From NCBI GenBank assembly GCA_017471365.1, contig JAFUUC010000076.1:1-46743 (forward strand): a DNA stretch of 46,743 bases, in the 5' to 3' direction. Position 1 is the stretch's first letter, and each line of letters begins with the position of its first letter. Source of the stretch: a bacterium. Its GTDB lineage: Bacteria > Cyanobacteriota > Vampirovibrionia > Gastranaerophilales > Gastranaerophilaceae. The position numbers and the translations under genes were made by a program. This document shows positions 13,687 through 46,743 of this stretch, in pieces. Below the pieces are notes generated by a model. That model was not told the DNA's origin. It was given only the letters and a program-made list of their open reading frames with translations, and made no database searches.

Positions 13687-15492
13687 ATGAAATCAATAGA
13701 TAAAAAGACAGGTTACACATTGGCTGAAATTATGATCGTTTTGCTTGTGTTGACGATTATATTTGCGGCGTTTGCTCCTCTTATAACAAAAAGAAGGACA
13801 GCGTCAACCCGTAGCAAGTATGCCGTATGGAATCCTGCTGCTACCTGGGATACAAATGGTAATGCCTATTACGATGTGGGTGACTCAAATTCAGATGCTA
13901 CTGCCTACTTTGGTGTAACTCCGGAATCTGAAGCTGATATTAGTACAAATTTTAAACCGAATGCAAAAGTTGTGATCCGCTCATTAAATAAGGTTGGTGG
14001 CTCCAATGTGCAAAGGCAGATACAGTTTCGTTATGGCGGAGCCGGTTTAACAAGCGGCACTCCTAATAGCAGTTTTGCCGGTTCTATGCTACTAGACGGT
14101 AGAAATATCCTGATTGGAGGCAAGTATGATAGTGTCAATTATTACGCAGATCAAGCTTACTTGGCGAAAGATAATATAGCATTTGGATATAATGCTATGA
14201 ACAATTTGAGAAGTGGTGTTAATACATTAGCGGCTCCTGCCATAGGCAATATTGCAATAGGTTATCAGGCCGGTAGAGGCATTACCATGAGTTCAAATTA
14301 TAGTACCTATGTTGGTTATATGGCCGGGAATTACGGTGTTAATCAAACTTTCATAGGTGCTTACTCCGGACAGTATGTTACAACCGGTAGTAACACTGCA
14401 ATTGGATATAAGGCCGGTCAGGGTGCTACTACTGGTGCTTCTGGAACTTATAATACTTTTATTGGTGCAGATACTGGGAAAAATTTTACCACAGGTAGTC
14501 GTAATTTGGGCATCGGCTACGATGCACTGGGAAGTCTAACTACAGGAAATTATAATGTTGCCGTTGGTTACAATGCACTAGGAAGGTTGACCACAGGCTC
14601 ACATAACGTTGCGATTGGTTACAATGCATGTTCTTACGTAACTACAGGATCTTATAAAACGTGTATTGGCTATAATTCTGGTCCTAAGTCTGGTACGACT
14701 TCTGATAAATTATTTAAAGCTGTTCAAGGTGGTGACGGTGCTAGAGGTGACAGTGTAGAGAGAACTTATATCGGCAGCACACCAAAAGGTGACTATGGCG
14801 GTGATGCTGTTCTCGAAATACATAATGTTAATTCTACTAATGCTTTTTTGTCCCCTCGTGGCAGGGGGGCTGGTGCTCCATCCGTTACATCCAATGTTAC
14901 AACCGTTATCAACGGTAATTTAATTGTAAGGGGGAAATTGTTTTTAACTTCTGGTAGTGAACTTCTTGTATTAACTAATAAAAATGTAAAGGCAATGACA
15001 AGTTTGGAATGGTTCCAGTCTGATATACCTAGGGCACTTGGTGTTCCAGGGGGGCGTGGATTTTCCGGACAGGCAAATTATGGATTTTCGAGTGATATAA
15101 ATTATCCGACTCTCCTCAGTGATCGCAGGTTAAAAAACATAACCTCGAAAAGTACAGCCGGGATTGAAAAAATTAAACAGTTAAAGGTTTACAATTACAA
15201 TTTTAAAAATGATAAAAACAAGTTGCCTCAGGTTGGTGTAATTGCTCAAGATTTGCAAAAAGTATTTCCTAATTCGGTGTTTGAAGGCTCGGATGGGTTT
15301 TTACGCATTTCTTGGGATGAGATGTTCTATGCTGTAATTAATGCGATTAAAGAACTTGATCAAAAAATAATCGCTCTTGTTAAACGAGCAACAACACTCG
15401 AAACTCAAATTACAAAACTTGAACAACAAAATTCAGAATTAAAACTTGAGATTGCTAAGTTGTCTTCAAGAGTTGAAGCTTTAAAAAAATAA
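13687..15492 (+). CDS. Prepilin / tail-spike chimera with S74 chaperone domain (1)
   Basis: A 601-residue chimera. Residues 1-35 are a class III (type IV pilin-like) signal: a basic leader, cleavage site G9-Y10, Glu at mature position 5 (E14), then a hydrophobic helix ending FAAFAPLITKRR. Residues 50-140 form a module shared with the other two copies (FGVTP, VVIRS, QIQFRYG). Residues about 160-345 are tandem 18-24 residue repeats of the NTAIGYxAGxxxTTG kind seen in phage tail fibres and trimeric adhesins. Then come VLEIHN and NGNLIVRG. Residues 478-601 are a peptidase_S74 intramolecular chaperone with the self-cleavage motif SDRRLK (Ser478), ending in a coiled coil. The assembly role is inferred; the function is unknown. 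Confidence 0.85.
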   Translation: MKSIDKKTGYTLAEIMIVLLVLTIIFAAFAPLITKRRTASTRSKYAVWNPAATWDTNGNAYYDVGDSNSDATAYFGVTPESEADISTNFKPNAKVVIRSLNKVGGSNVQRQIQFRYGGAGLTSGTPNSSFAGSMLLDGRNILIGGKYDSVNYYADQAYLAKDNIAFGYNAMNNLRSGVNTLAAPAIGNIAIGYQAGRGITMSSNYSTYVGYMAGNYGVNQTFIGAYSGQYVTTGSNTAIGYKAGQGATTGASGTYNTFIGADTGKNFTTGSRNLGIGYDALGSLTTGNYNVAVGYNALGRLTTGSHNVAIGYNACSYVTTGSYKTCIGYNSGPKSGTTSDKLFKAVQGGDGARGDSVERTYIGSTPKGDYGGDAVLEIHNVNSTNAFLSPRGRGAGAPSVTSNVTTVINGNLIVRGKLFLTSGSELLVLTNKNVKAMTSLEWFQSDIPRALGVPGGRGFSGQANYGFSSDINYPTLLSDRRLKNITSKSTAGIEKIKQLKVYNYNFKNDKNKLPQVGVIAQDLQKVFPNSVFEGSDGFLRISWDEMFYAVINAIKELDQKIIALVKRATTLETQITKLEQQNSELKLEIAKLSSRVEALKK

Positions 15493-17019: not shown

Positions 17020-19110
17020 TTATTTTTCTAATTTGCTCAACTCACTCTCAAGTTCATCAAGCTTTTTAATAAGTTGAACATTTTCTTCTTTTAGGGCTTT
17101 TAGCCTTGCTTTGTCATTTTGAACTCTGACAATAAGATTTTCTACCTTAGTATTTAGTTCTTTAACGGCGTTAATTGCAGCATAAAACATCTCATCCCAA
17201 CGAATTTTGTAGAATCCGTCTTTGGTTTTTTGAACCGCAGTAGGGAAAATAGACTTCAAATCCTGTGCAATAACACCGACGTGTGCCAATTTATACGGAT
17301 CAGACTTAAATGTATAATTATAAACATTTAACTTTTTAATCTTCTCCAAGCCATCAGTAAATGGAGCCTCGACATTTTTTAATCTTATATCAGAGACAGT
17401 ATAGCCATGCCCCGTCGGTTCAACTAAAATCGGGCAACAAGAATATATTACACCGTTTTTTGAAGCATAATTAAATGTACTATCATGCAAGTTGTGAGCA
17501 CCGTTTAGAAAAATTTTATCATCAACAATAGTTGTATGACGATCGGTTACATCGACATTTCTCCAAACTTTAATATCCTGACCGAGGGACAAATCACGGT
17601 ATGGGGTATTAATATCATATTTGAAATTTGTACCATCAACAGTGACAGCACTGCCACCGGAATTTTTATTAAACCAGTCATAAGAAGTTATAGCACTTTG
17701 ATTAATAGCACATGAACATGCGGTATGTCCAATGTGTGTTTTATGCCACTTTCCTCTCTTACCCTTAACTGTATCGTCGACAGAACCATCATTTCCTGCC
17801 ATAACATAAAAACTTTTTCCGGCAGGTTTTGTTATTTTAAATGCCATTAATGCAGCACTAACATCCGTACTAGGCTTCAACAATTCTTTCAACTGATCAA
17901 CATAATATTCCAAATTAAGGAATTTGAACCATGTTCCTTCATCTATTTCCGGTGGAGCACCAAACATGTAATACTGACCTCTAACTATTAAATTGCCATT
18001 TATTACAACAGAAGGTGAATTATCAACATTGTGTACTTCCAATACCGCAACACCGCCAAGCTTTTTATTATCAGGAATAGTTACTGTTCCATTATTGTTT
18101 ATCGGTTTACCACCAATAAATACACGTTCGTTGCTATCATTTAATAGCCAATCGCCATCACTAATAGGTTCTTCTGAACCGGAATAAGAACCTATAAAAG
18201 TTTTGTAGCTCGTATTAAGACCTAAATTACCTGCATTATATCCAATTGCCGTATTGTAGCTGCCTGTTTGCAGACCAGATTTATCTGCATCACCTGAAGG
18301 ATAGATATAAGGTCCAACATAAGTATTACCTGTTCCGCTAGACAATTTTGACAGAGCTTGATAACCAAAAGCAGTATTACCCGTACCAGAAGCCAATTCA
18401 GATAAAGCAGTATGACCAACAGCAGTGTTTCTGGCTTGGGTAGAATTATATAATGCTTTTGTACCTATAGCGGTATTGTAATAAGCTTTTGCTAACCTGC
18501 CTGCTTCAGAGCCAATAAATGTCCCCCCTGTTGGAGTAGTAGAACTACCACCTGCATATGCACCAATAGCTGTATTAGCAGTAACTGAAGCTATTGAACT
18601 TAAAGCGTTAAAACCAACAGCAGTATTCATTGCACCTGTAGTTAAGCTGGTCAATGCACCGTACCCAAAAGCTGTATTGTCCTGAGCGGTAGAAATACGT
18701 CTATAAGGACCACCTAACATCATGTTGCCATTCCCAGCGAAAACAGAGGAAATAAGCACCCCCGTCCCGTTACCATAACGAAAATCAATCTGAGCCTGAC
18801 GTTTAGAAGAAGACAGAGCATTAGAAGATCTAATTATTACTTTTGAATACGGAGCATAAATACCGCTAATATCATTTGCCTTTGTTGGAGTAACACCAAT
18901 AAAAGATTCTGCCGGTAAAGACTTATTCACTTCATCAGAATAAGCATCATGCTGGGTATCTTCTTGAATAAATTTCCAAACTTCTTCTGAGGATGCATTA
19001 TTATAACGAACCGTAAAAACAGGTGCAAATGCCGCGAACAATACCGTCAGTATCGATATCATAACCAACAATTCCGCTATAGTAAAAGCTTTATTCTTTG
19101 ATAATTTCAT
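17020..19110 (-). CDS. Prepilin / tail-spike chimera with S74 chaperone domain (2)
   Basis: A 696-residue homologue of the protein at 13687. The prepilin signal has basic residues, then A8-F9 at the expected cleavage site (Ala rather than Gly at -1), Glu at mature position 5 (E13) and a helix ending FAAFAPVFTVR. The shared module follows (SFIGVTP, KVIIRSS, QIDFRYG, MMLGG). Clear tandem NTAFGY/NTAVGF/NTAIGA repeats fill about residues 142-312, then VLEVHN and NGNLIVRG. A unique ~200-residue stretch includes several cysteines. The S74 domain starts at SDIRLK (Ser573) and ends in a long coiled coil. It lies 16 bp after its paralogue in one operon, with GGAG about 11 bases before the ATG. Confidence 0.85.
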   Translation of the reverse strand: MKLSKNKAFTIAELLVMISILTVLFAAFAPVFTVRYNNASSEEVWKFIQEDTQHDAYSDEVNKSLPAESFIGVTPTKANDISGIYAPYSKVIIRSSNALSSSKRQAQIDFRYGNGTGVLISSVFAGNGNMMLGGPYRRISTAQDNTAFGYGALTSLTTGAMNTAVGFNALSSIASVTANTAIGAYAGGSSTTPTGGTFIGSEAGRLAKAYYNTAIGTKALYNSTQARNTAVGHTALSELASGTGNTAFGYQALSKLSSGTGNTYVGPYIYPSGDADKSGLQTGSYNTAIGYNAGNLGLNTSYKTFIGSYSGSEEPISDGDWLLNDSNERVFIGGKPINNNGTVTIPDNKKLGGVAVLEVHNVDNSPSVVINGNLIVRGQYYMFGAPPEIDEGTWFKFLNLEYYVDQLKELLKPSTDVSAALMAFKITKPAGKSFYVMAGNDGSVDDTVKGKRGKWHKTHIGHTACSCAINQSAITSYDWFNKNSGGSAVTVDGTNFKYDINTPYRDLSLGQDIKVWRNVDVTDRHTTIVDDKIFLNGAHNLHDSTFNYASKNGVIYSCCPILVEPTGHGYTVSDIRLKNVEAPFTDGLEKIKKLNVYNYTFKSDPYKLAHVGVIAQDLKSIFPTAVQKTKDGFYKIRWDEMFYAAINAVKELNTKVENLIVRVQNDKARLKALKEENVQLIKKLDELESELSKLEK

Positions 19111-19126
19111 TTACAAATTACTCCGT

Positions 19127-20971
19127 TTATTTTTTTTCAAGTTTTGCTGCTCTAGCGTTCAGATCTGAAACACGTTTCTGAATAGATTTGTTACTATCAC
19201 TTAAAGTATCAACATCTTGAACCATTTGAGCAACATCGTGTGCGATTTTTTCAACTCTTTCATTTATGTGTTTTACAGCATTAATTAAAGCATAAAACAT
19301 TTCATCCCAATGAATACGTAAATACCCGTCATCACCTTTTCTTACAGCATTTGGAAATATTTTTTGTAATTTCTGTGCTATAACACCAACCTGTGGGAGG
19401 CTGTTTTCATCAGCTTTAAAGGTATAATGATAAGATTCGATATTTAAAATTTTATCAATACCGTCATTATTGTTAGATAAATTCTCTTTTAACCTGATAT
19501 CAGATTTTAAATTAGGAAAACCATCAACATTAACAAAACCGTATGAAGATGCGTTAGTAACCCCACTATTCTGATCTCCAGATAAAAAATTATTTGATAC
19601 GGTAGATTTATTAAATAACGCCCAACCACCGGTTAAAGCACAACCCCAATATTTAAGGAGAAATCTATCACAAGTCCATATAGGATCTAAATAACCATAT
19701 GGACGATAACCATATCTTGCTAATTTGCCATCATAACCGGCTGTCTCAGGTGCAAAAAGTCTACCCCTGACAACAAGATTAGAATTTAAAACTACACTTG
19801 CATTAGGATCTTTACTAGTAGGACTAAATCCACCAGCAATATTGTGTACCTCTAGCACAGATCTACCGGCAAAGCCGCCATATGGAGTTCCACCCAAAAA
19901 TACGTAGTTGCCGGTATTTTCATTCATTGGATCCCCTGTTGCACTATTCGTACCATGAACTGCTGATGCAGACTTGTAACCAATACAAGTTCTTACACCA
20001 ACATCAGCCGTAAACGAATCACAAGCACCATATCCAACGGCAGTCATAAAAGACATTTCCGGATTTTTATTCACGTATGTACCGTAACCTAAAATTGTAT
20101 TTAACTGAGCAGTTGTACCATAATAACCTGAAGAACCAATAACATTGTATCCACCAGAAACTTTTGGATACGCACGGGAATTCGCAGACGCACGTCCGGT
20201 TAATCCATTACCTGTATTTGCACCTACAACAGTATTACCAGCACCCCATAAATTTGGTGAAAACAGTGAATTATAACCTACCCCAACACTTGTATCAGGA
20301 GCATTTTCGGTTCTACCGGCATTAGCACCAACAAATGTCGACCAAGAAGGAGTAGCATCGAAATCAAGCCCATAATCTCTAGCCGCATTTGTACCGATTG
20401 CCGTCAAAGAACTCCCGCCCCTGGCACTAGAATCAAACATCGTAAAAGAACCAACTGTTGTCATATTTTGATTTAATGCATTACTAGGTAAACGAAAAGT
20501 ATTTAAACCAAGTACGGTATTTCTTACAAAAGCATCACTTCCTGTATCATTTGATCTATTATAAAACCCTGTACCAAGAAGCATATTACCTCTATCAATA
20601 AATAGTGAACCCGTGTTTGCACCGGTATCACTACCATATCGGAATTGAATCATATGCTGCTTAGTCTTTGCTCTGATGGTTAATTTACCACCATAGTTAT
20701 AATCATTGGCATCAGTAAGATCACCTGGATTTACACCAATAAACGCAATTGAAGGCCAGGATGTAATTTGCGGATCAAAATATGAATCCCTATTAGGGTC
20801 ACCAGTTACATAATTCCAAACAGATTCATTAGACCAGTCCCCACCAACGACTTTCCTTTTTGTCATTATAGGTGCGAGTGCAGCAAACAGCACCGCTATG
20901 ATCATTAATACAATCAACAATTCCGTTAACGAAAAGGCAGATTTACTTCCCTTATTTATAATCATCCTCAT
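19127..20971 (-). CDS. Prepilin / tail-spike chimera with S74 chaperone domain (3)
   Basis: A 614-residue third paralogue. Its prepilin signal has A12-F13 at the cleavage site, Glu at mature position 5 (E17), and a helix ending FAALAPIMTKRK. The shared module has AFIGVNP, KLTIRAK, MIQFRYG and MLLGTG. The central repeats (about residues 145-330) are more degenerate than in the other two. VLEVHN and NSNLVVRG follow. The S74 chaperone starts at SDIRLK (Ser490), with the conserved PQVGVIAQKLQKIFPNAV and a C-terminal coiled coil. It is the first gene of the pair and has its own strong promoter. ATG at 20971 or the one two codons later are both possible; GGAG precedes them. Confidence 0.85.
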   Translation of the reverse strand: MRMIINKGSKSAFSLTELLIVLMIIAVLFAALAPIMTKRKVVGGDWSNESVWNYVTGDPNRDSYFDPQITSWPSIAFIGVNPGDLTDANDYNYGGKLTIRAKTKQHMIQFRYGSDTGANTGSLFIDRGNMLLGTGFYNRSNDTGSDAFVRNTVLGLNTFRLPSNALNQNMTTVGSFTMFDSSARGGSSLTAIGTNAARDYGLDFDATPSWSTFVGANAGRTENAPDTSVGVGYNSLFSPNLWGAGNTVVGANTGNGLTGRASANSRAYPKVSGGYNVIGSSGYYGTTAQLNTILGYGTYVNKNPEMSFMTAVGYGACDSFTADVGVRTCIGYKSASAVHGTNSATGDPMNENTGNYVFLGGTPYGGFAGRSVLEVHNIAGGFSPTSKDPNASVVLNSNLVVRGRLFAPETAGYDGKLARYGYRPYGYLDPIWTCDRFLLKYWGCALTGGWALFNKSTVSNNFLSGDQNSGVTNASSYGFVNVDGFPNLKSDIRLKENLSNNNDGIDKILNIESYHYTFKADENSLPQVGVIAQKLQKIFPNAVRKGDDGYLRIHWDEMFYALINAVKHINERVEKIAHDVAQMVQDVDTLSDSNKSIQKRVSDLNARAAKLEKK

Positions 20972-32094: not shown

Positions 32095-32950
32095 AGTTAT
32101 TGCAATTGTTGGAGCTACGGCAAGCGGGAAAACTGCTTATTCAATCGAACTTGCAAAAAAAATTGATGGAGAAATAATATCTGCTGATTCCAGACTTGTT
32201 TATAAAGGGATGGACATTGGAACAGCAAAACCAACCAGCGACGAGCAATGCGGAATACCGCATTATATGATAGATATTGTAGAACCGGAATTTGAGTACT
32301 CTGTAGGGCTTTATCAAAAACAAGCTAAAGAAAAAATTTACGAAATAGCTTCTCGTGGAAAAACGCCCATAGTAGTAGGCGGTACTGGTCTTTATACTGA
32401 TATTCTACTAAAAAATTTTTCGCTTCCTAGTATTCCACCGAATTGGGATAAACGAAATGAACTAAACAATTATTCAAGTGAAGAACTATTTGAAATTCTT
32501 TCAAAAAAAGACCCAAAAGCAGCACAAGAGATTAAAAGTGCAGACAAAAAAAAGATTATTCGTGCATTAGAAATAATTGAAATTACAGGTCAAACTCTTG
32601 ACAAAGTTCGAGGTATAAAGGCTGCTGAATTTGATGTTCAGTGGATTGGAAGAAATTTTGACAGAGAAATACTTTATGAAAGAATTGAGCAACGTGTTGA
32701 TAAAATGATAGAAAATGGACTTATTGAAGAAACAAAAAAACTGATTAAACAACACGGGAAAATACATAATATTGTTAATACAATAGGATACAAAGAAATT
32801 CTATCGTACTTAGATAAGGAATGTTCTATAGATGAAGCTGTTAAAAAACTGAAACAAAATACACGTAATTATGCTAAAAGACAGCTAACCTGGTTTCGTA
32901 AAAATCCTGAAATAGAATGGAATATCTATCCGCAAAAGCTTAAGAAGTGA
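32066..32950 (+). CDS. miaA: tRNA dimethylallyltransferase MiaA
   Basis: A 294-residue enzyme that adds the isopentenyl group to A37 of tRNAs reading UNN codons. The P-loop GATASGKT opens the protein; ISADSRLVYKGMDIGTAKPT and VVGGTGLYTD are family motifs. The C-terminal QRQTWF-type motif appears as KRQLTWFRK. ATG at 32066 is preferred to TTG at 32045. It lies inside the end of the membrane-protein gene. The tRNA-Leu(CAA) in this window is a candidate substrate class. Its 3' end overlaps yhcH by 11 bp. Confidence 0.93.
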   Translation: MKQCSSKKIKVIAIVGATASGKTAYSIELAKKIDGEIISADSRLVYKGMDIGTAKPTSDEQCGIPHYMIDIVEPEFEYSVGLYQKQAKEKIYEIASRGKTPIVVGGTGLYTDILLKNFSLPSIPPNWDKRNELNNYSSEELFEILSKKDPKAAQEIKSADKKKIIRALEIIEITGQTLDKVRGIKAAEFDVQWIGRNFDREILYERIEQRVDKMIENGLIEETKKLIKQHGKIHNIVNTIGYKEILSYLDKECSIDEAVKKLKQNTRNYAKRQLTWFRKNPEIEWNIYPQKLKK

Positions 32951-33386
32951 TTTTCATCTTCACAACAACTTTCAAAACTTTCATACTTTCATTGAGGCTA
33001 ATTTGCGGTGCGTGTGCTTCGTGAGGAAACAGTACAACGAAATTTGAACCATCAAGTGTGATATAGGGAACATTTTCAACGTTATCAGAATAAAAAACTA
33101 TATCCCTATTTTCATCATAATTTTGTAAAATATTTAATTCATCTACGGGAGCATAAGAAATTTTCTCTTTCCCCTTCAATAAAATTTGAATATCAAGATA
33201 CTTTTTATGGGATTCAAACTTTGCATTTGTAACTTCTTTTGTAAAATATTCTTCAACATTAGCATAAATGTCATCAGATATAACGTACTTGCCTAAAGCC
33301 GTTTCAGAGCTTAAATTATTTACAAAATCTACAACTTCTTTTGGAAACTTATAGAAACTCAGATTATTCAATTTGTCACTAATCAT
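32940..33386 (-). CDS. YhcH/YjgK/YiaL family cupin-like protein
   Basis: A 148-residue member of the DUF386 / YhcH family, some of which act as N-acetylneuraminate anomerases. Candidate metal or substrate residues are in NAKFESHKKYLDIQ (Glu, His) and FPHEAHAPQI (two His, Glu), as in the family. ATG at 33386 is chosen because GAGG lies about 7 bases upstream; an upstream in-frame ATG at 33425 has no site and runs through a hairpin. No sialic-acid genes are nearby, so the substrate is open. Confidence 0.85.
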   Translation of the reverse strand: MISDKLNNLSFYKFPKEVVDFVNNLSSETALGKYVISDDIYANVEEYFTKEVTNAKFESHKKYLDIQILLKGKEKISYAPVDELNILQNYDENRDIVFYSDNVENVPYITLDGSNFVVLFPHEAHAPQISLNESMKVLKVVVKMKITS

Positions 33387-33403
33387 ACATACCTCACAAA
33401 ATC

Positions 33404-33423
33404 GTCCGAAATTACTTTCGGAC
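33404..33423 (-). terminator. Perfect hairpin between giant prepilin and yhcH
   Basis: GTCCGAAA-TTAC-TTTCGGAC is an 8-bp perfect stem with a 4-base loop, 21 bases after the prepilin stop and 18 bases before the yhcH ATG. On the minus strand it is followed by GATTTTGT, a weak U-tract, so termination or attenuation is plausible. Confidence 0.55.
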
Positions 33424-33443
33424 AATTATATAAACTATTGCTA

Positions 33444-35747
33444 TTACAAGAACGAATGTTTCTTTTTAACAGTAATGTAACATTTATTTGAAAAACAAGG
33501 ATTTGAACTAGGTCCATCCACCGGTCCGATATTGTTTTCCAGACAATATGGAGCATATTTGCTTATAATACCTGCCTTGCATACAGCCTGTGCATAAGAA
33601 ATCCCGGAATAAACAACTTCACGTTTTCTAGAAGATGTATCCGGCTTATAGTAGTATACACTTGAAGATAAAAATGCCGGATTATTACCACCTACATTAG
33701 CACCTGTTGCATCTAGCGGATACCCAGGGAAAACTCTGCCTGTAGTAGCTACATAGAATGGGAAAACGTCCTTCCAAAGTGTACCATCACCCTTATTACC
33801 ATTTATATCTACATAGATAACAAAACCGCTAATTGCCATAGCTCTATTATCAGCCTCACCTGTAGGAGTAACAAAAGATGAACAGCAATTCCTTGCATCG
33901 GTCATATCAGATAAACCATTTGCTAAAGTGAAGCAATGAAGCTCGTTACCGCAGAAATAACCGCTTGCAGCATTACAACCACCTTCTGTTGCTTTATCCA
34001 AATCCACACATATATTTTGATTTTTTGAAGTAATTGACGGGTCGAATGTCAATCCAGGTAAAGAAGCCATTCTATCAGCCAAAATCCACATCTTTAAGCC
34101 ATTTGAGAATACAATGTTTGGAGTTATCGAGTTAAATGCACCCTCTTTAGCATTTATAGAATTTAAGACATTTGAATCATAGGCAGAATTTTTTTGAGCA
34201 ACCGCATCATATAAATCTTTATAGAAATGCTCTCCATCCGAACCTTTATTAGAACTATTATCAAATATATCGCAGTGTTTTGATGAAATATTCCAGTTAT
34301 CTGCGACAAGATTACACAATTTTTTTGCTTCTAAAACAAACGGAGCCGGCACACAAGCCTGTGCTGTTTCATCGAATTTCATACCAGGAGGACAATCACC
34401 TGTTCTTACACATGCAGTTTCGGCTTCATTCATTTCAAAACCACGTACACACTTGCATTTATTTGAAGCTGCATCGTAATTTGAGTAATCAGGACAGCAG
34501 GTCTCGGTTGTATAATTAAAATCTCCTTTACAAGTCTTGCAAGTATTATCCGTATTCAAATAACCGTACGCAGTATAACCACTTGGAGGGGTTTGACAGC
34601 ACACACGACTGTTGTCGTACGAAGGTTCAGGGTGATTATTATCACACATACAGCTAACAGTAGCTTGTCCGCTTTTTATAGTTCCACCATCATTCACTGT
34701 TACCGTAGGAGCTCCATTTCTCATATTATAATAGCCATTGGTCGCAGAACAAGCATCAGCAGAAACAGCAGGTGGATAGTACGTTGCCCCATAATTATTA
34801 AATCCGGATGAGGCTGTAGAATATGTAACTTTGATCTTACAAACGTGAGTTGTTTCGGCATCATAATCTCCATCTTCGTCTGTACCACCTTCTGTAGTTT
34901 CTTCCTCATAAATAATATTAGATGCATCACCATTATCTTCTTTACAACGGGTAGCCATAATATTTTCACAATACTGCTTCGCAGTACTGTTACGCACAGA
35001 ATTTACCTCAGCTGAACTTAGCCCAACAAATACATCATTACCATCATCATCCTTTGCTGTTGTTATTTTATCACTCGGCATTGTACACTTTGAGTTAGAA
35101 TACAAAGATAATATATCCTGCTGAGCGATCTGAGCTGAAGTCATGTTCGCGTCAGTATAGTCATCAGACATATTGCCGTTTTCATCAATCGTACCAGTTC
35201 CTGGCTCACATCCAAAATCTTCCTTTGTATAATACTGTGCCGGAACATAATCTTCACTGCCTTCAGTACCCTGTGCTTCAGATTTTAGTATATCAGTTTT
35301 ATTATTTATGCACACATCGATTTCTATTTTCAAATCATCAAAAGATGACTCATCAAATACGTTTTCATATACAGTCTCATCAGCGTAAGCTTTTGGGAAC
35401 AATGTTTTAAAAATTATAAGTTCAGTATTTGCAATTTTTGAAGGTAAAGTTGCTATAAAAGAATGTAATTTGTTTTTATGAGTTTTTTTAGTTTTATTCA
35501 CAGACGCTATTTTTGAGGAATTACCCGGTAAATAAGACGTGTCATAATCCGGATCACCTAGTGCCGCAATTTGACCACCTATTTTCTCTACAGTTTTGTA
35601 AGCCAGATAATAGGAATATTCATCCGATTTTCCCATTTGACTACGAATAACAGGTAAAGTCACCGCCGTCAAAATTCCAACAATTAAAATTGCGATGGAA
35701 ATTTCCGTAAGCGTAAAACCGAACTTTTTATTTTTTAAAATACTCAT
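33444..35747 (-). CDS. Large Cys-rich prepilin-like protein
   Basis: A 767-residue protein with a canonical class III prepilin signal: basic leader, G10-F11 cleavage site, Glu at mature position 5 (E15), then a hydrophobic helix. It lacks the S74 domain. Residues about 200-460 contain many cysteines, including CxC, CC and spaced C pairs such as CMCDNN, VCCQTP, CKTCKG, TCCPD and CKCVRGF. These resemble EGF/GCC2-type disulfide modules, followed by CPPGMKFDETAQACVP. The C-terminal ~280 residues are globular with further cysteines. At five times normal pilin length it is probably a minor or tip pilin. Function is unknown. GAGG precedes the ATG. Confidence 0.8.
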   Translation of the reverse strand: MSILKNKKFGFTLTEISIAILIVGILTAVTLPVIRSQMGKSDEYSYYLAYKTVEKIGGQIAALGDPDYDTSYLPGNSSKIASVNKTKKTHKNKLHSFIATLPSKIANTELIIFKTLFPKAYADETVYENVFDESSFDDLKIEIDVCINNKTDILKSEAQGTEGSEDYVPAQYYTKEDFGCEPGTGTIDENGNMSDDYTDANMTSAQIAQQDILSLYSNSKCTMPSDKITTAKDDDGNDVFVGLSSAEVNSVRNSTAKQYCENIMATRCKEDNGDASNIIYEEETTEGGTDEDGDYDAETTHVCKIKVTYSTASSGFNNYGATYYPPAVSADACSATNGYYNMRNGAPTVTVNDGGTIKSGQATVSCMCDNNHPEPSYDNSRVCCQTPPSGYTAYGYLNTDNTCKTCKGDFNYTTETCCPDYSNYDAASNKCKCVRGFEMNEAETACVRTGDCPPGMKFDETAQACVPAPFVLEAKKLCNLVADNWNISSKHCDIFDNSSNKGSDGEHFYKDLYDAVAQKNSAYDSNVLNSINAKEGAFNSITPNIVFSNGLKMWILADRMASLPGLTFDPSITSKNQNICVDLDKATEGGCNAASGYFCGNELHCFTLANGLSDMTDARNCCSSFVTPTGEADNRAMAISGFVIYVDINGNKGDGTLWKDVFPFYVATTGRVFPGYPLDATGANVGGNNPAFLSSSVYYYKPDTSSRKREVVYSGISYAQAVCKAGIISKYAPYCLENNIGPVDGPSSNPCFSNKCYITVKKKHSFL

Positions 35748-35759
35748 TATTCCTCACTT

Positions 35760-36587
35760 TCATTTTAATTCCAATATAGCTTTTTCATAATCATCTTTTG
35801 ACGGAGCTTTTCCGTGCCAGCCAGCATTATTTTCCATAAAACTTACTCCCTTACCTTTTATTGTGTTGGCAACAATAACTGTAGGAGAATTTGCCTTTTT
35901 AGCATTTTCTATAGCATCAAAAATTTGGGCAATATTATGTCCATCAATTTCTATAACATTCCAGTTAAAAGCATGTAATTTATCTACAAGATTATCAAGC
36001 GGTTTTATATCTTCAGTACAACCATCAATCTGTAACCTGTTTCTATCAATTATAGCAATAATATTATCTAAATTTCTGGCAGGAGCCTGCATAAAAGCTT
36101 CCCAAACATTGCCTTCTTGTAGTTCACCGTCACCAAGTAGAACAAAAACTTTAGCCGGATTTTTGTCCATTTTCAAAGATAATGCAATCCCGCAGGCAAT
36201 AGATAATCCTTGCCCCAAAGATCCTGTTGCAACTTCAACACCTGGACACCATAAAGAAGGATGTCCCTGAAGTCTTGAACCAAGCATTCTAAAGGTTTTT
36301 AATTCAGATTTGTTTATAAAACCTAATTGTGACAACACTGAATAATATATGGGAGAAACATGACCTTTTGACAGTACAAAGCGATCTCTTTGATTATAAT
36401 CTTTAGACAACTTACCATTTAATGCATGCTTCATACATTTATGAAACAAAACAGTCATGATTTCACAAGAAGAAAGCGAACCGCCTATATGACCGGAAGC
36501 TGCCGTATAAACCATATCTAATATGTTTTTTCTATTTTCAAGACAAAGTTCTTCAATTTTCTTTATTTCGGATTCGCTTAATTTCAT
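35760..36587 (-). CDS. Transketolase, N-terminal (TPP-binding) subunit
   Basis: A 275-residue protein equal to the N-terminal half of transketolase. The TPP/Mg motif GDGELQEGNVWEA with downstream DRNRLQIDG is visible, as are SGHIGGSLSS and KGHVSPIYYS. Split transketolases work as a pair with a C-terminal subunit, normally the next gene. Here the next gene is the giant prepilin, so the partner must be elsewhere. The start overlaps the tagA stop by 4 bp (ATGA), showing translational coupling. Confidence 0.92.
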   Translation of the reverse strand: MKLSESEIKKIEELCLENRKNILDMVYTAASGHIGGSLSSCEIMTVLFHKCMKHALNGKLSKDYNQRDRFVLSKGHVSPIYYSVLSQLGFINKSELKTFRMLGSRLQGHPSLWCPGVEVATGSLGQGLSIACGIALSLKMDKNPAKVFVLLGDGELQEGNVWEAFMQAPARNLDNIIAIIDRNRLQIDGCTEDIKPLDNLVDKLHAFNWNVIEIDGHNIAQIFDAIENAKKANSPTVIVANTIKGKGVSFMENNAGWHGKAPSKDDYEKAILELK

Positions 36588-46299: not shown

Positions 46300-46743
46300 A
46301 TGACAAAATTTAGAAAAGGTTTTACTTTAGCCGAAATATTGATCACCCTTGCAATCATCGGCGTAGTCGCTGCATTAACTTTGCCAACACTGATTGCAAA
46401 AGTGAACGAAAAATTTGATCAAAATCAAATTAAAGTTACTCGTGCAAAGTTATTCCAGGGTATCAAAATGCTCGATCTGCACGGCGGAGTAAACAATACT
46501 TATTCTTCTACTGCTGAATTTGTGGAAGAATTATCTAAATACATGAAGATTACAAAGATCTGTGACGGTAGTACAACTTCATTTAGTGAATGTATTCCGT
46601 ACAGCGAGATAAAATATTTAGAAGATGAAGAAGAAAAAACTATAGAAGTTACAAAAATTGATGCAGCAGAAATGCTAAGTTTGGATAAGGTAGAGAATGC
46701 TGAATTTATGTCACCGGTAGCATTGGTATTGGGTGACGGGACA
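46300..46743 (+). CDS. Type IV prepilin-like protein, partial
   Basis: The first 148 codons run off the window end. A prepilin signal has G7-F8 at the cleavage site, Glu at mature position 5 (E12) and a helix continuing LITLAIIGVVAALTLPTL. The mature part then has the spacing VNEKFDQNQIKVTRAKLFQGIKML common in Melainabacteria-type pseudopilins. A pair of cysteines (KICDGSTTSFSEC) could form a short disulfide loop. AAGGAG lies about 7 bases before the ATG. It lacks S74 features so far. Confidence 0.85.
   Translation, partial: MTKFRKGFTLAEILITLAIIGVVAALTLPTLIAKVNEKFDQNQIKVTRAKLFQGIKMLDLHGGVNNTYSSTAEFVEELSKYMKITKICDGSTTSFSECIPYSEIKYLEDEEEKTIEVTKIDAAEMLSLDKVENAEFMSPVALVLGDGT

Follow-up and report, generated by a model that had tools for sequence, protein, structure and literature searches.

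Comparison of sequences and gene neighborhoods indicates that the 767-aa prepilin encoded in the window (the whole analyzed stretch of DNA, 46,743 nucleotides) is a conserved small pilin enlarged about threefold by inserts: about 400 residues separate helix alpha-1 from the globular domain, and about 60 more lie within that domain. The first-pass annotation, which described a giant cysteine-rich prepilin, had missed this relationship. We consider it rather probable that the protein is a type IV pilin in which a small chassis carries two inserted cysteine-rich blocks and presents a disulfide-stapled binding rod. Type IV pilins are usually small, since each must pack into a filament. The locus is a natural before-and-after pair: some genera have a near-bare chassis, and another has a version three times as large. 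With it, the load that a pilin can bear and the places where its fold tolerates inserts become testable, as does a role of disulfide rods as adhesins in the anaerobic gut.

The prepilin gene and its conserved slot

The open reading frame is present at the annotated coordinates (Table 1), on the minus strand, and the plus strand there is stop-ridden. The type IV pilin signal was confirmed by the canonical prepilin leader, MSILKNKKFG^FTLTEI. The NCBIfam prepilin domain TIGR02532 is above its cut-off (21.2 vs 16.3 bits), and Pfam N_methyl is slightly below its own on the 767-aa protein (19.9 vs 21.2 bits) and above it for the same frame in a six-frame scan (26.1 bits). Residue 10 is Gly or Ala and residue 11 is Phe in 31 of 31 orthologues, and Glu5 of the mature protein (E15) is likewise kept in all of them. 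The protein thus has a class III leader ending in G/A, a hydrophobic alpha-1, and Glu5. Its outsize length was also borne out: it is the longest of 90 prepilin-like frames of its own genome, collected by regular expression from 80 own-genome stretches and the window. Promoter and terminator scans stayed near shuffle level (23 vs 18.7 and 2 vs 2.6, respectively), and a tRNA was the only match to Rfam at gathering scores.

Table 1. Positions of the features discussed, in window coordinates unless a contig is named.
Feature	Position	Strand	Basis
Whole gene, 767-aa prepilin with inserts (P0001)	33444..35747	minus	Open reading frame; TIGR02532; N_methyl in six-frame scan
Leader peptide, residues 1-10 (MSILKNKKFG)	35718..35747	minus	Sequence; inferred prepilin-peptidase cut after G10
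Helix alpha-1 of chassis, residues 11-65	35553..35717	minus	Model helices 13-38 and 42-62 (low to middling confidence); small-pilin alignment
Insert 1, residues 66-469, 20 Cys, between alpha-1 and globular chassis domain	34341..35552	minus	
Residues 325-469 of insert 1 (its best-folded part), 14 Cys, short strands in tandem, read as hairpins	34341..34775	minus	AlphaFold2; cysteine conservation and co-loss
Chassis first part, residues 470-574 (C478/C492 pair, TPNIVFSNGL)	34026..34340	minus	Alignment; profile A3
Insert 2, residues 575-635, 6 Cys (C580, 591, 599, 605, 621, 622)	33843..34025	minus	
Chassis globular domain, residues 636-767, DxNGxxG...W.DVFPF motif, C723, 735, 751, 756	33447..33842	minus	
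Transketolase N-terminal gene (tktN), upstream neighbor	35760..36587	minus	Pfam Transketolase_N; synteny
YhcH/YjgK/YiaL (DUF386) gene, downstream neighbor	32940..33425	minus	Pfam DUF386; synteny
Template repeat (L247)	G000:C101:30278-30316	minus	Predicted; 0 mismatches

The gene lies in a slot between tktN and a DUF386 gene. The tktN gene adjoins the pilin in 38 of 42 loci of the orthologue set (it is absent at L058, L060, L074, and L083), and in six further genera (g7, g17, g20, g22, g27, and g38) there are 18 genomes in which both neighbors flank a pilin. This shared synteny supports orthology between the 767-aa prepilin and the slot pilins. In those 18 genomes the slot pilin, whose length was partly read from open frames, measures 258-347 aa in 14 cases and 417-666 aa in four (L027, L186, L229, and L233). 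The stretch from alpha-1 to the chassis was compared in 12 small slot pilins: in ten it spans 9-36 aa with 0-1 Cys, and in L038 and L231, both of g7, it spans 73-74 aa with 3-4 Cys. In the orthologue set the corresponding stretch is 257-503 aa long and holds 13-28 Cys (28 of 31 proteins measured). The insert lengths come from a regular-expression locator, which gave no value for 10 of 84 proteins; single values may be off, and some genes carry two labels. The short, cysteine-poor stretch of the small pilins in the same slot is the reason for reading the 767-aa protein as a small pilin plus inserts.

Sequence comparison of the chassis is consistent with this reading. BLAST against shorter prepilins of other genera aligned approximately residues 1-60 and 640-735, with the middle barely matched. 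The homology of the chassis to small prepilins is seen at the level of sequence; the whole-protein model is too poor to depict the globular beta domain. In an alignment of 27 proteins, C478, C492, C723, C735, C751, and C756 are present in all 19 chassis proteins that do not belong to the orthologue set. Each of the insert-2 cysteines (580-622) is found in 31 of 31 orthologues and in none of those 19 proteins.

Cysteine conservation and the fold of the inserts

The prepilin contains 32 cysteines (4.17%), compared with a mean of 1.12% over the 37 other frames of the window. The first-pass annotation had reported clusters of CC, CxC, and CxxC within a stretch of about 250 residues. The cysteine richness holds, with 16 cysteines in residues 200-450 and 18 in residues 220-469, and it extends toward the C-terminus, as 12 of the 32 lie beyond residue 470. 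The motif excess does not: CC occurs three times, CxC twice, and CxxC once, and this total of six was reached by 18% of 5000 shuffles. The observation of a cysteine module stands because the cysteines are conserved, not because of motif counts.

Matches to the prepilin at E<=1e-20 were found in 38 of 46 genomes of the same genus and in 32 of the 34 of good quality; the eight genomes without such a match, two of them of good quality, count against the favored explanation. A scan of the contigs of named genomes gave 12 loci, in RUG and RGIG metagenome assemblies and one 'Candidatus Gastranaerophilales' bin; one of these loci has a roe deer rumen source, and the RUG series is presumably rumen-derived. 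Forty loci provided 38 complete frames (two had none), and removal of seven duplicates left 31 distinct orthologues, the query counted, all of which are linked to the genus by handle or identical protein except L056 and L057. Identity to the query is 34-45% for the 13 orthologues compared. Across the 31 orthologues, retention between residues 140 and 500 was 84% of cells for cysteines, compared with 17% for the other query residues, and 17 of the 32 cysteine columns are invariant. Conservation in related genomes had been put forward earlier as a check on the module; the cysteines were not lost in homologues, and the description as a prepilin with a disulfide-type module can be kept. Two positions count against the favored explanation: C180 is found in the query alone and C221 in 5 of 31 orthologues.

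Several of the cysteines are lost in pairs, as expected of disulfides, and this pattern, drawn from few independent events, suggests that they are bonded to one another. C384 and C403 are missing together in seven sequences, with two single losses (C403 in L022 and L076); C368 and C383 in four, with one single loss (C383 in L085); C406 and C417 in two sequences of separate lineages, in both of which C418 and C431 are retained; and C478 and C492 in two. Fisher p values for these four neighbor pairs range from 1.4e-5 to 2e-3, with no correction for relatedness or for having picked the best pairs, and changes of the first cysteine on the tree number three for 384/403, three for 368/383, two for 406/417, and one for 478/492. 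Non-neighboring C260 and C303 are also lost jointly in two sequences, with one single loss, which counts against neighbor pairing. Eight module cysteines are invariant and give no information on pairing. Read from these losses, the module looks like hairpins stapled in sequence, a ladder.

The AlphaFold2 model of the full-length protein (10 sequences) has a mean pLDDT of 43, and residues approximately 361-450 are among its best parts (65-79). Residues 325-500 alone gave a mean pLDDT of 77.8 and a pTM of 0.51, with a chain of short strands. Foldseek with residues 325-500 returned no match at E<=0.001. The matches listed include Pfs25 (E 0.007), RSPO2 (0.027), the insulin receptor (0.07), RANK (0.11), and TNFR1 (0.16), and are mostly disulfide-rich extracellular modules; VIA-align of the same residues reached Z 2.5 at most. 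Structure matches of the full-length model, the best being RANK at E 0.21 and GnsA at Z 4.5 on the weak stretch 243-312, were set aside. A disulfide-rich extracellular class is plausible for the module, and the family is not assignable.

Resemblance to EGF or GCC2 modules had also been proposed in the first-pass annotation, and here the domain search gave a negative answer, with neither family on the query at E<=5; the module was accordingly not taken as an EGF family member. GCC2, GCC3, and TIL were found neither on the query at E<=5 nor among the ten families listed for ten members at E<=10. One alternative holds that the module consists of one or more true EGF-like domains, perhaps of eukaryotic origin, which bind protein ligands. 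The disulfide order of EGF is 1-3, 2-4, 5-6. Residues 431-446 fit C-x-C-x2-G-[FY]-x(4,8)-C, which we take to be the EGF signature, and Pfam on 10 orthologues matched cEGF in two (best 0.017), EGF_2 in two (best 0.058), and teneurin EGF in one (0.57). Weak matches to the EGF of factor X (E 0.88 in sequence; Z 2.4, rmsd 5.6, over 49 residues of 1hcg_B in structure) and the weak structural match to Pfs25 point the same way. On the other hand, besides the missing family match on the query, no Z exceeds 2.5, and furin-like and TNFR-type repeats are of similar rank. The joint loss of C406 and C417 in two lineages that keep C418 and C431 is ill-suited to pairing of 406-418 and 417-431, and co-lost pairs are mostly neighbors, unlike the EGF order, in the few independent events available. 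True EGF-like domains are therefore an unlikely account of the module.

Two motifs outside this cysteine pattern may be mentioned. A PKAxA-like motif lies in otherwise variable surroundings within insert 1 (residues 118-124, window 35376-35396, minus strand); among the 31 orthologues P118 is retained in 30, K119 in 27, A120 in 21, and A122 in 30. The motif resembles a site of cleavage or docking. The DxNG motif at 647-650 has D in 31 of 31 orthologues, N in 28 and D in three at its third position, and G in 31; our guess is that it resembles a calcium loop.

Pilus machinery, chassis paralogues, and other pilins of the genome

A PilB-like ATPase gene adjoins a PilC/GspF-like gene in this genome, both below NCBIfam equivalog cut-offs and above those of Pfam, and a PilT-family ATPase is above its cut-off. 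Because PilB-like, PilC/GspF-like, and PilT-family genes are present, retractile type IV pili are likely. The prepilin gene itself lies away from the pilus genes, which counts against the favored explanation. According to that explanation, prepilin peptidase would cut the leader after G10, and a PilB/PilC-like machine would polymerize the pilin, perhaps as a minor subunit, via alpha-1. A VKOR-DsbA enzyme would oxidize the inserts to give a rod of disulfide-stapled hairpins, and this rod would project from the filament and bind a ligand on the surface of host, feed, or microbes. The genome encodes a VKOR-DsbA fusion (L086), which is a plausible source of the oxidation. As described in the accessible text of PMC10191384, the tip-capping subunit lacks Glu5. 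Glu5 is kept in all orthologues of the 767-aa prepilin, and so the protein is no Glu5-less capping subunit; we propose that it sits beneath the cap or at positions along the filament.

The same genes bear on the alternative that the protein serves a type II secretion-like machine as a pseudopilin and grips secreted proteins, not surfaces, with its inserts. Its weak N-terminal matches include GspG, the models for GspE and GspF are also matched by the ATPase and platform genes at scores below cut-off, and GspK likewise has a domain inserted in its pilin module (accessible text of PMC8179133). However, the GspG match is limited to residues 10-85 (21.5 vs a cut-off of 88.85 bits), the ATPase scores higher as PilB than as GspE (560 vs 503 bits), the PilT-family ATPase is above cut-off, and Glu5 is invariant, unlike in the tip-capping subunit. 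We regard a pseudopilin as improbable. That the cysteines bind metal or do redox chemistry and form no disulfides, as the presence of CxC and CxxC motifs in a presumed gut anaerobe might suggest, is very improbable given their joint loss in pairs, the VKOR-DsbA gene, and motif counts no higher than in shuffles.

The chassis is shared well beyond the genus. Profile A3 of the chassis matches 46 of 142 family genomes, spread over 15 of 41 genera. In a phylum sample of 292 genomes it matches 74, without exception members of this family (both samples are draws of genomes, and the non-family share of the latter is not given). Genomes of g7 can carry several chassis paralogues; G227 has eight matches. 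Pairwise comparison of seven G227 paralogues gave 73-94% shared residues over the last 210 positions and 42-73% over the aligned middle; G203b and G203c break this pattern of diverging inserts, with a middle 88% alike and a chassis part 100% alike. Of 39 paralogue stretches taken, five were without a protein (G268b, G134b, and three of G038). Paralogues reach approximately 1068 aa and 98 Cys (L213 of G268). Read from sequence, the insert-1 site in one protein of G134 (genus g38) holds a lectin-like (CTLD) stretch; neither L219 nor L136 had a lectin match in Pfam. In G022 a cysteine-rich block seems to occupy the second insertion site, where the A3 profile match is split, and insert 1 is merely 31 aa. 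Pfam found no module common to six cysteine-rich paralogues. A 646-aa chassis paralogue of G044 (L228:494-2431, minus strand) has an insert that matches CXCXC repeats (39.5 bits, cut-off 15), a repeat family known from insect silk proteins.

The genome is rich in other pilins. A six-frame scan of the 1.81-Mb assembly (G000) gave 88 N_methyl (prepilin N-terminal) matches above the Pfam cut-off; among 117 family genomes, prepilin matches at E<=5e-4 range from none (4 genomes) to at least 64. Since 45 of the 90 extracted pilin frames run past the end of their stretch, usually a contig end, repeats of this family seem to break the assembly. The window contains three further large prepilins, at 13687-15492 (plus), 17020-19110 (minus), and 19127-20971 (minus). 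Two of them were scanned with Pfam, and both have Peptidase_S74 close to their C-terminal end, at 56.3 and 53.2 bits against a cut-off of 22. The Peptidase_S74 domain is, we assume, the entry IPR030392. That entry is named, with peptidase activity, among modular pilins in the accessible text of PMC8179133, so the S74 kind of prepilin has probably been listed already.

In another pilin family of this genome, of approximately 365 aa, the N-terminal parts are almost constant and the 3' ends vary; by our reading of the sequence these pilins are lectin-like (CTLD), and a truncated member lies at approximately 46300-46743 (plus) of the window. The 3'-end variation sits largely at codons ending in C or T, for which reason a retroelement template was predicted. 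A search of six genus genomes allowing up to three mismatches gave one match, in the genome itself, with no mismatch in 39 bases; there was none in the other five genomes and none for a reversed control. Ten pilin 3' ends, compared in alignments of 90 bases or more with shorter ones left out, differ from the template at 221 of 469 A positions, compared with 83 of 957 other positions, and the next gene after the template is bAvd-like (48.3 bits against a cut-off of 40). These patterns mark other pilins of the genome as targets of a diversity-generating retroelement. The G000 assembly showed no reverse transcriptase at E<=0.01; the gene may be unassembled, lost, or diverged, and one is present in 15 of 46 genus genomes. 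In G007, a reverse transcriptase gene (L245, 76.4 bits) stands beside two frames that share a similar G/N/S/R-rich stretch, and the region looks like another retroelement cassette with a non-pilin target. The accessible texts of PMC12632263 and PMC6642488 report retroelement-diversified tip pilins in type V pili of Bacteroides and putative pilin structures among retroelement targets, respectively.

A broader and distinctly tentative reading, which we hold to be possible rather than probable, joins these observations. One gut Cyanobacteriota/Melainabacteria family, as sampled, would possess a pilin display platform, made of a chassis with two fixed sites that exchange unrelated modules and with diverging binding parts, beside retroelement-diversified lectin-like pilins, which together would form a changing repertoire of surface binders. 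The exchanged modules would be cysteine ladders of up to approximately 780 residues and 90 Cys, or C-type-lectin-like domains.

Relation to known modular pilins

Little is reported on the pili of Gastranaerophilales/Melainabacteria in the open-access papers searched. In the accessible text of PMC5877343, pilA, pilB, pilC, pilT, and pilD are named in one genome, with partial pilus sets in earlier genomes. The open-access literature searched yielded no description of cysteine-rich insertion in a pilin whose slot holds a small orthologue elsewhere, of two insertion sites or paired cysteine loss in pilins, or of a type IV pilin combined either with cysteine-rich and EGF-like or with C-type lectin and diversity-generating. 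The words cysteine, disulfide, and EGF are absent from the main text of PMC8179133.

Modular type IV pilins as such are well known. According to the accessible text of Raynaud 2021 (PMC8179133), they comprise more than 1,200 proteins in 264 architectures, with PilB and PilC of Streptococcus sanguinis as examples, and modules grafted onto PilB-type pilins are presented for adhesion. The 767-aa prepilin resembles PilB and PilC in that a pilin bears a bulky extra module, here large inserts that match no named domain. In PilB, as described in that text, the module is joined to the pilin part by a short loop, whereas the blocks of the 767-aa prepilin precede and interrupt the globular domain. It also differs from the modular pilins in that its cysteine-rich blocks have no significant Pfam family and that the slot is occupied by a small pilin in sister genera. 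The type II secretion pseudopilin GspK is similar in that its extra domain is inserted into the pilin module and not appended; this insert is an alpha-domain, unlike those of the 767-aa prepilin (accessible text of PMC8179133). With the cysteine-rich repeats of EGF, furin-like, and TNF-receptor proteins, to whose class the leading structural matches mostly belong, the protein shares short disulfide-linked units in series, but it has no significant match to them, and its paired losses point to sequential disulfides. It may thus be regarded as a variant of the already known and widespread modular pilins, to which cysteine-rich insertion, two insertion sites, and paired loss of cysteines add new aspects.
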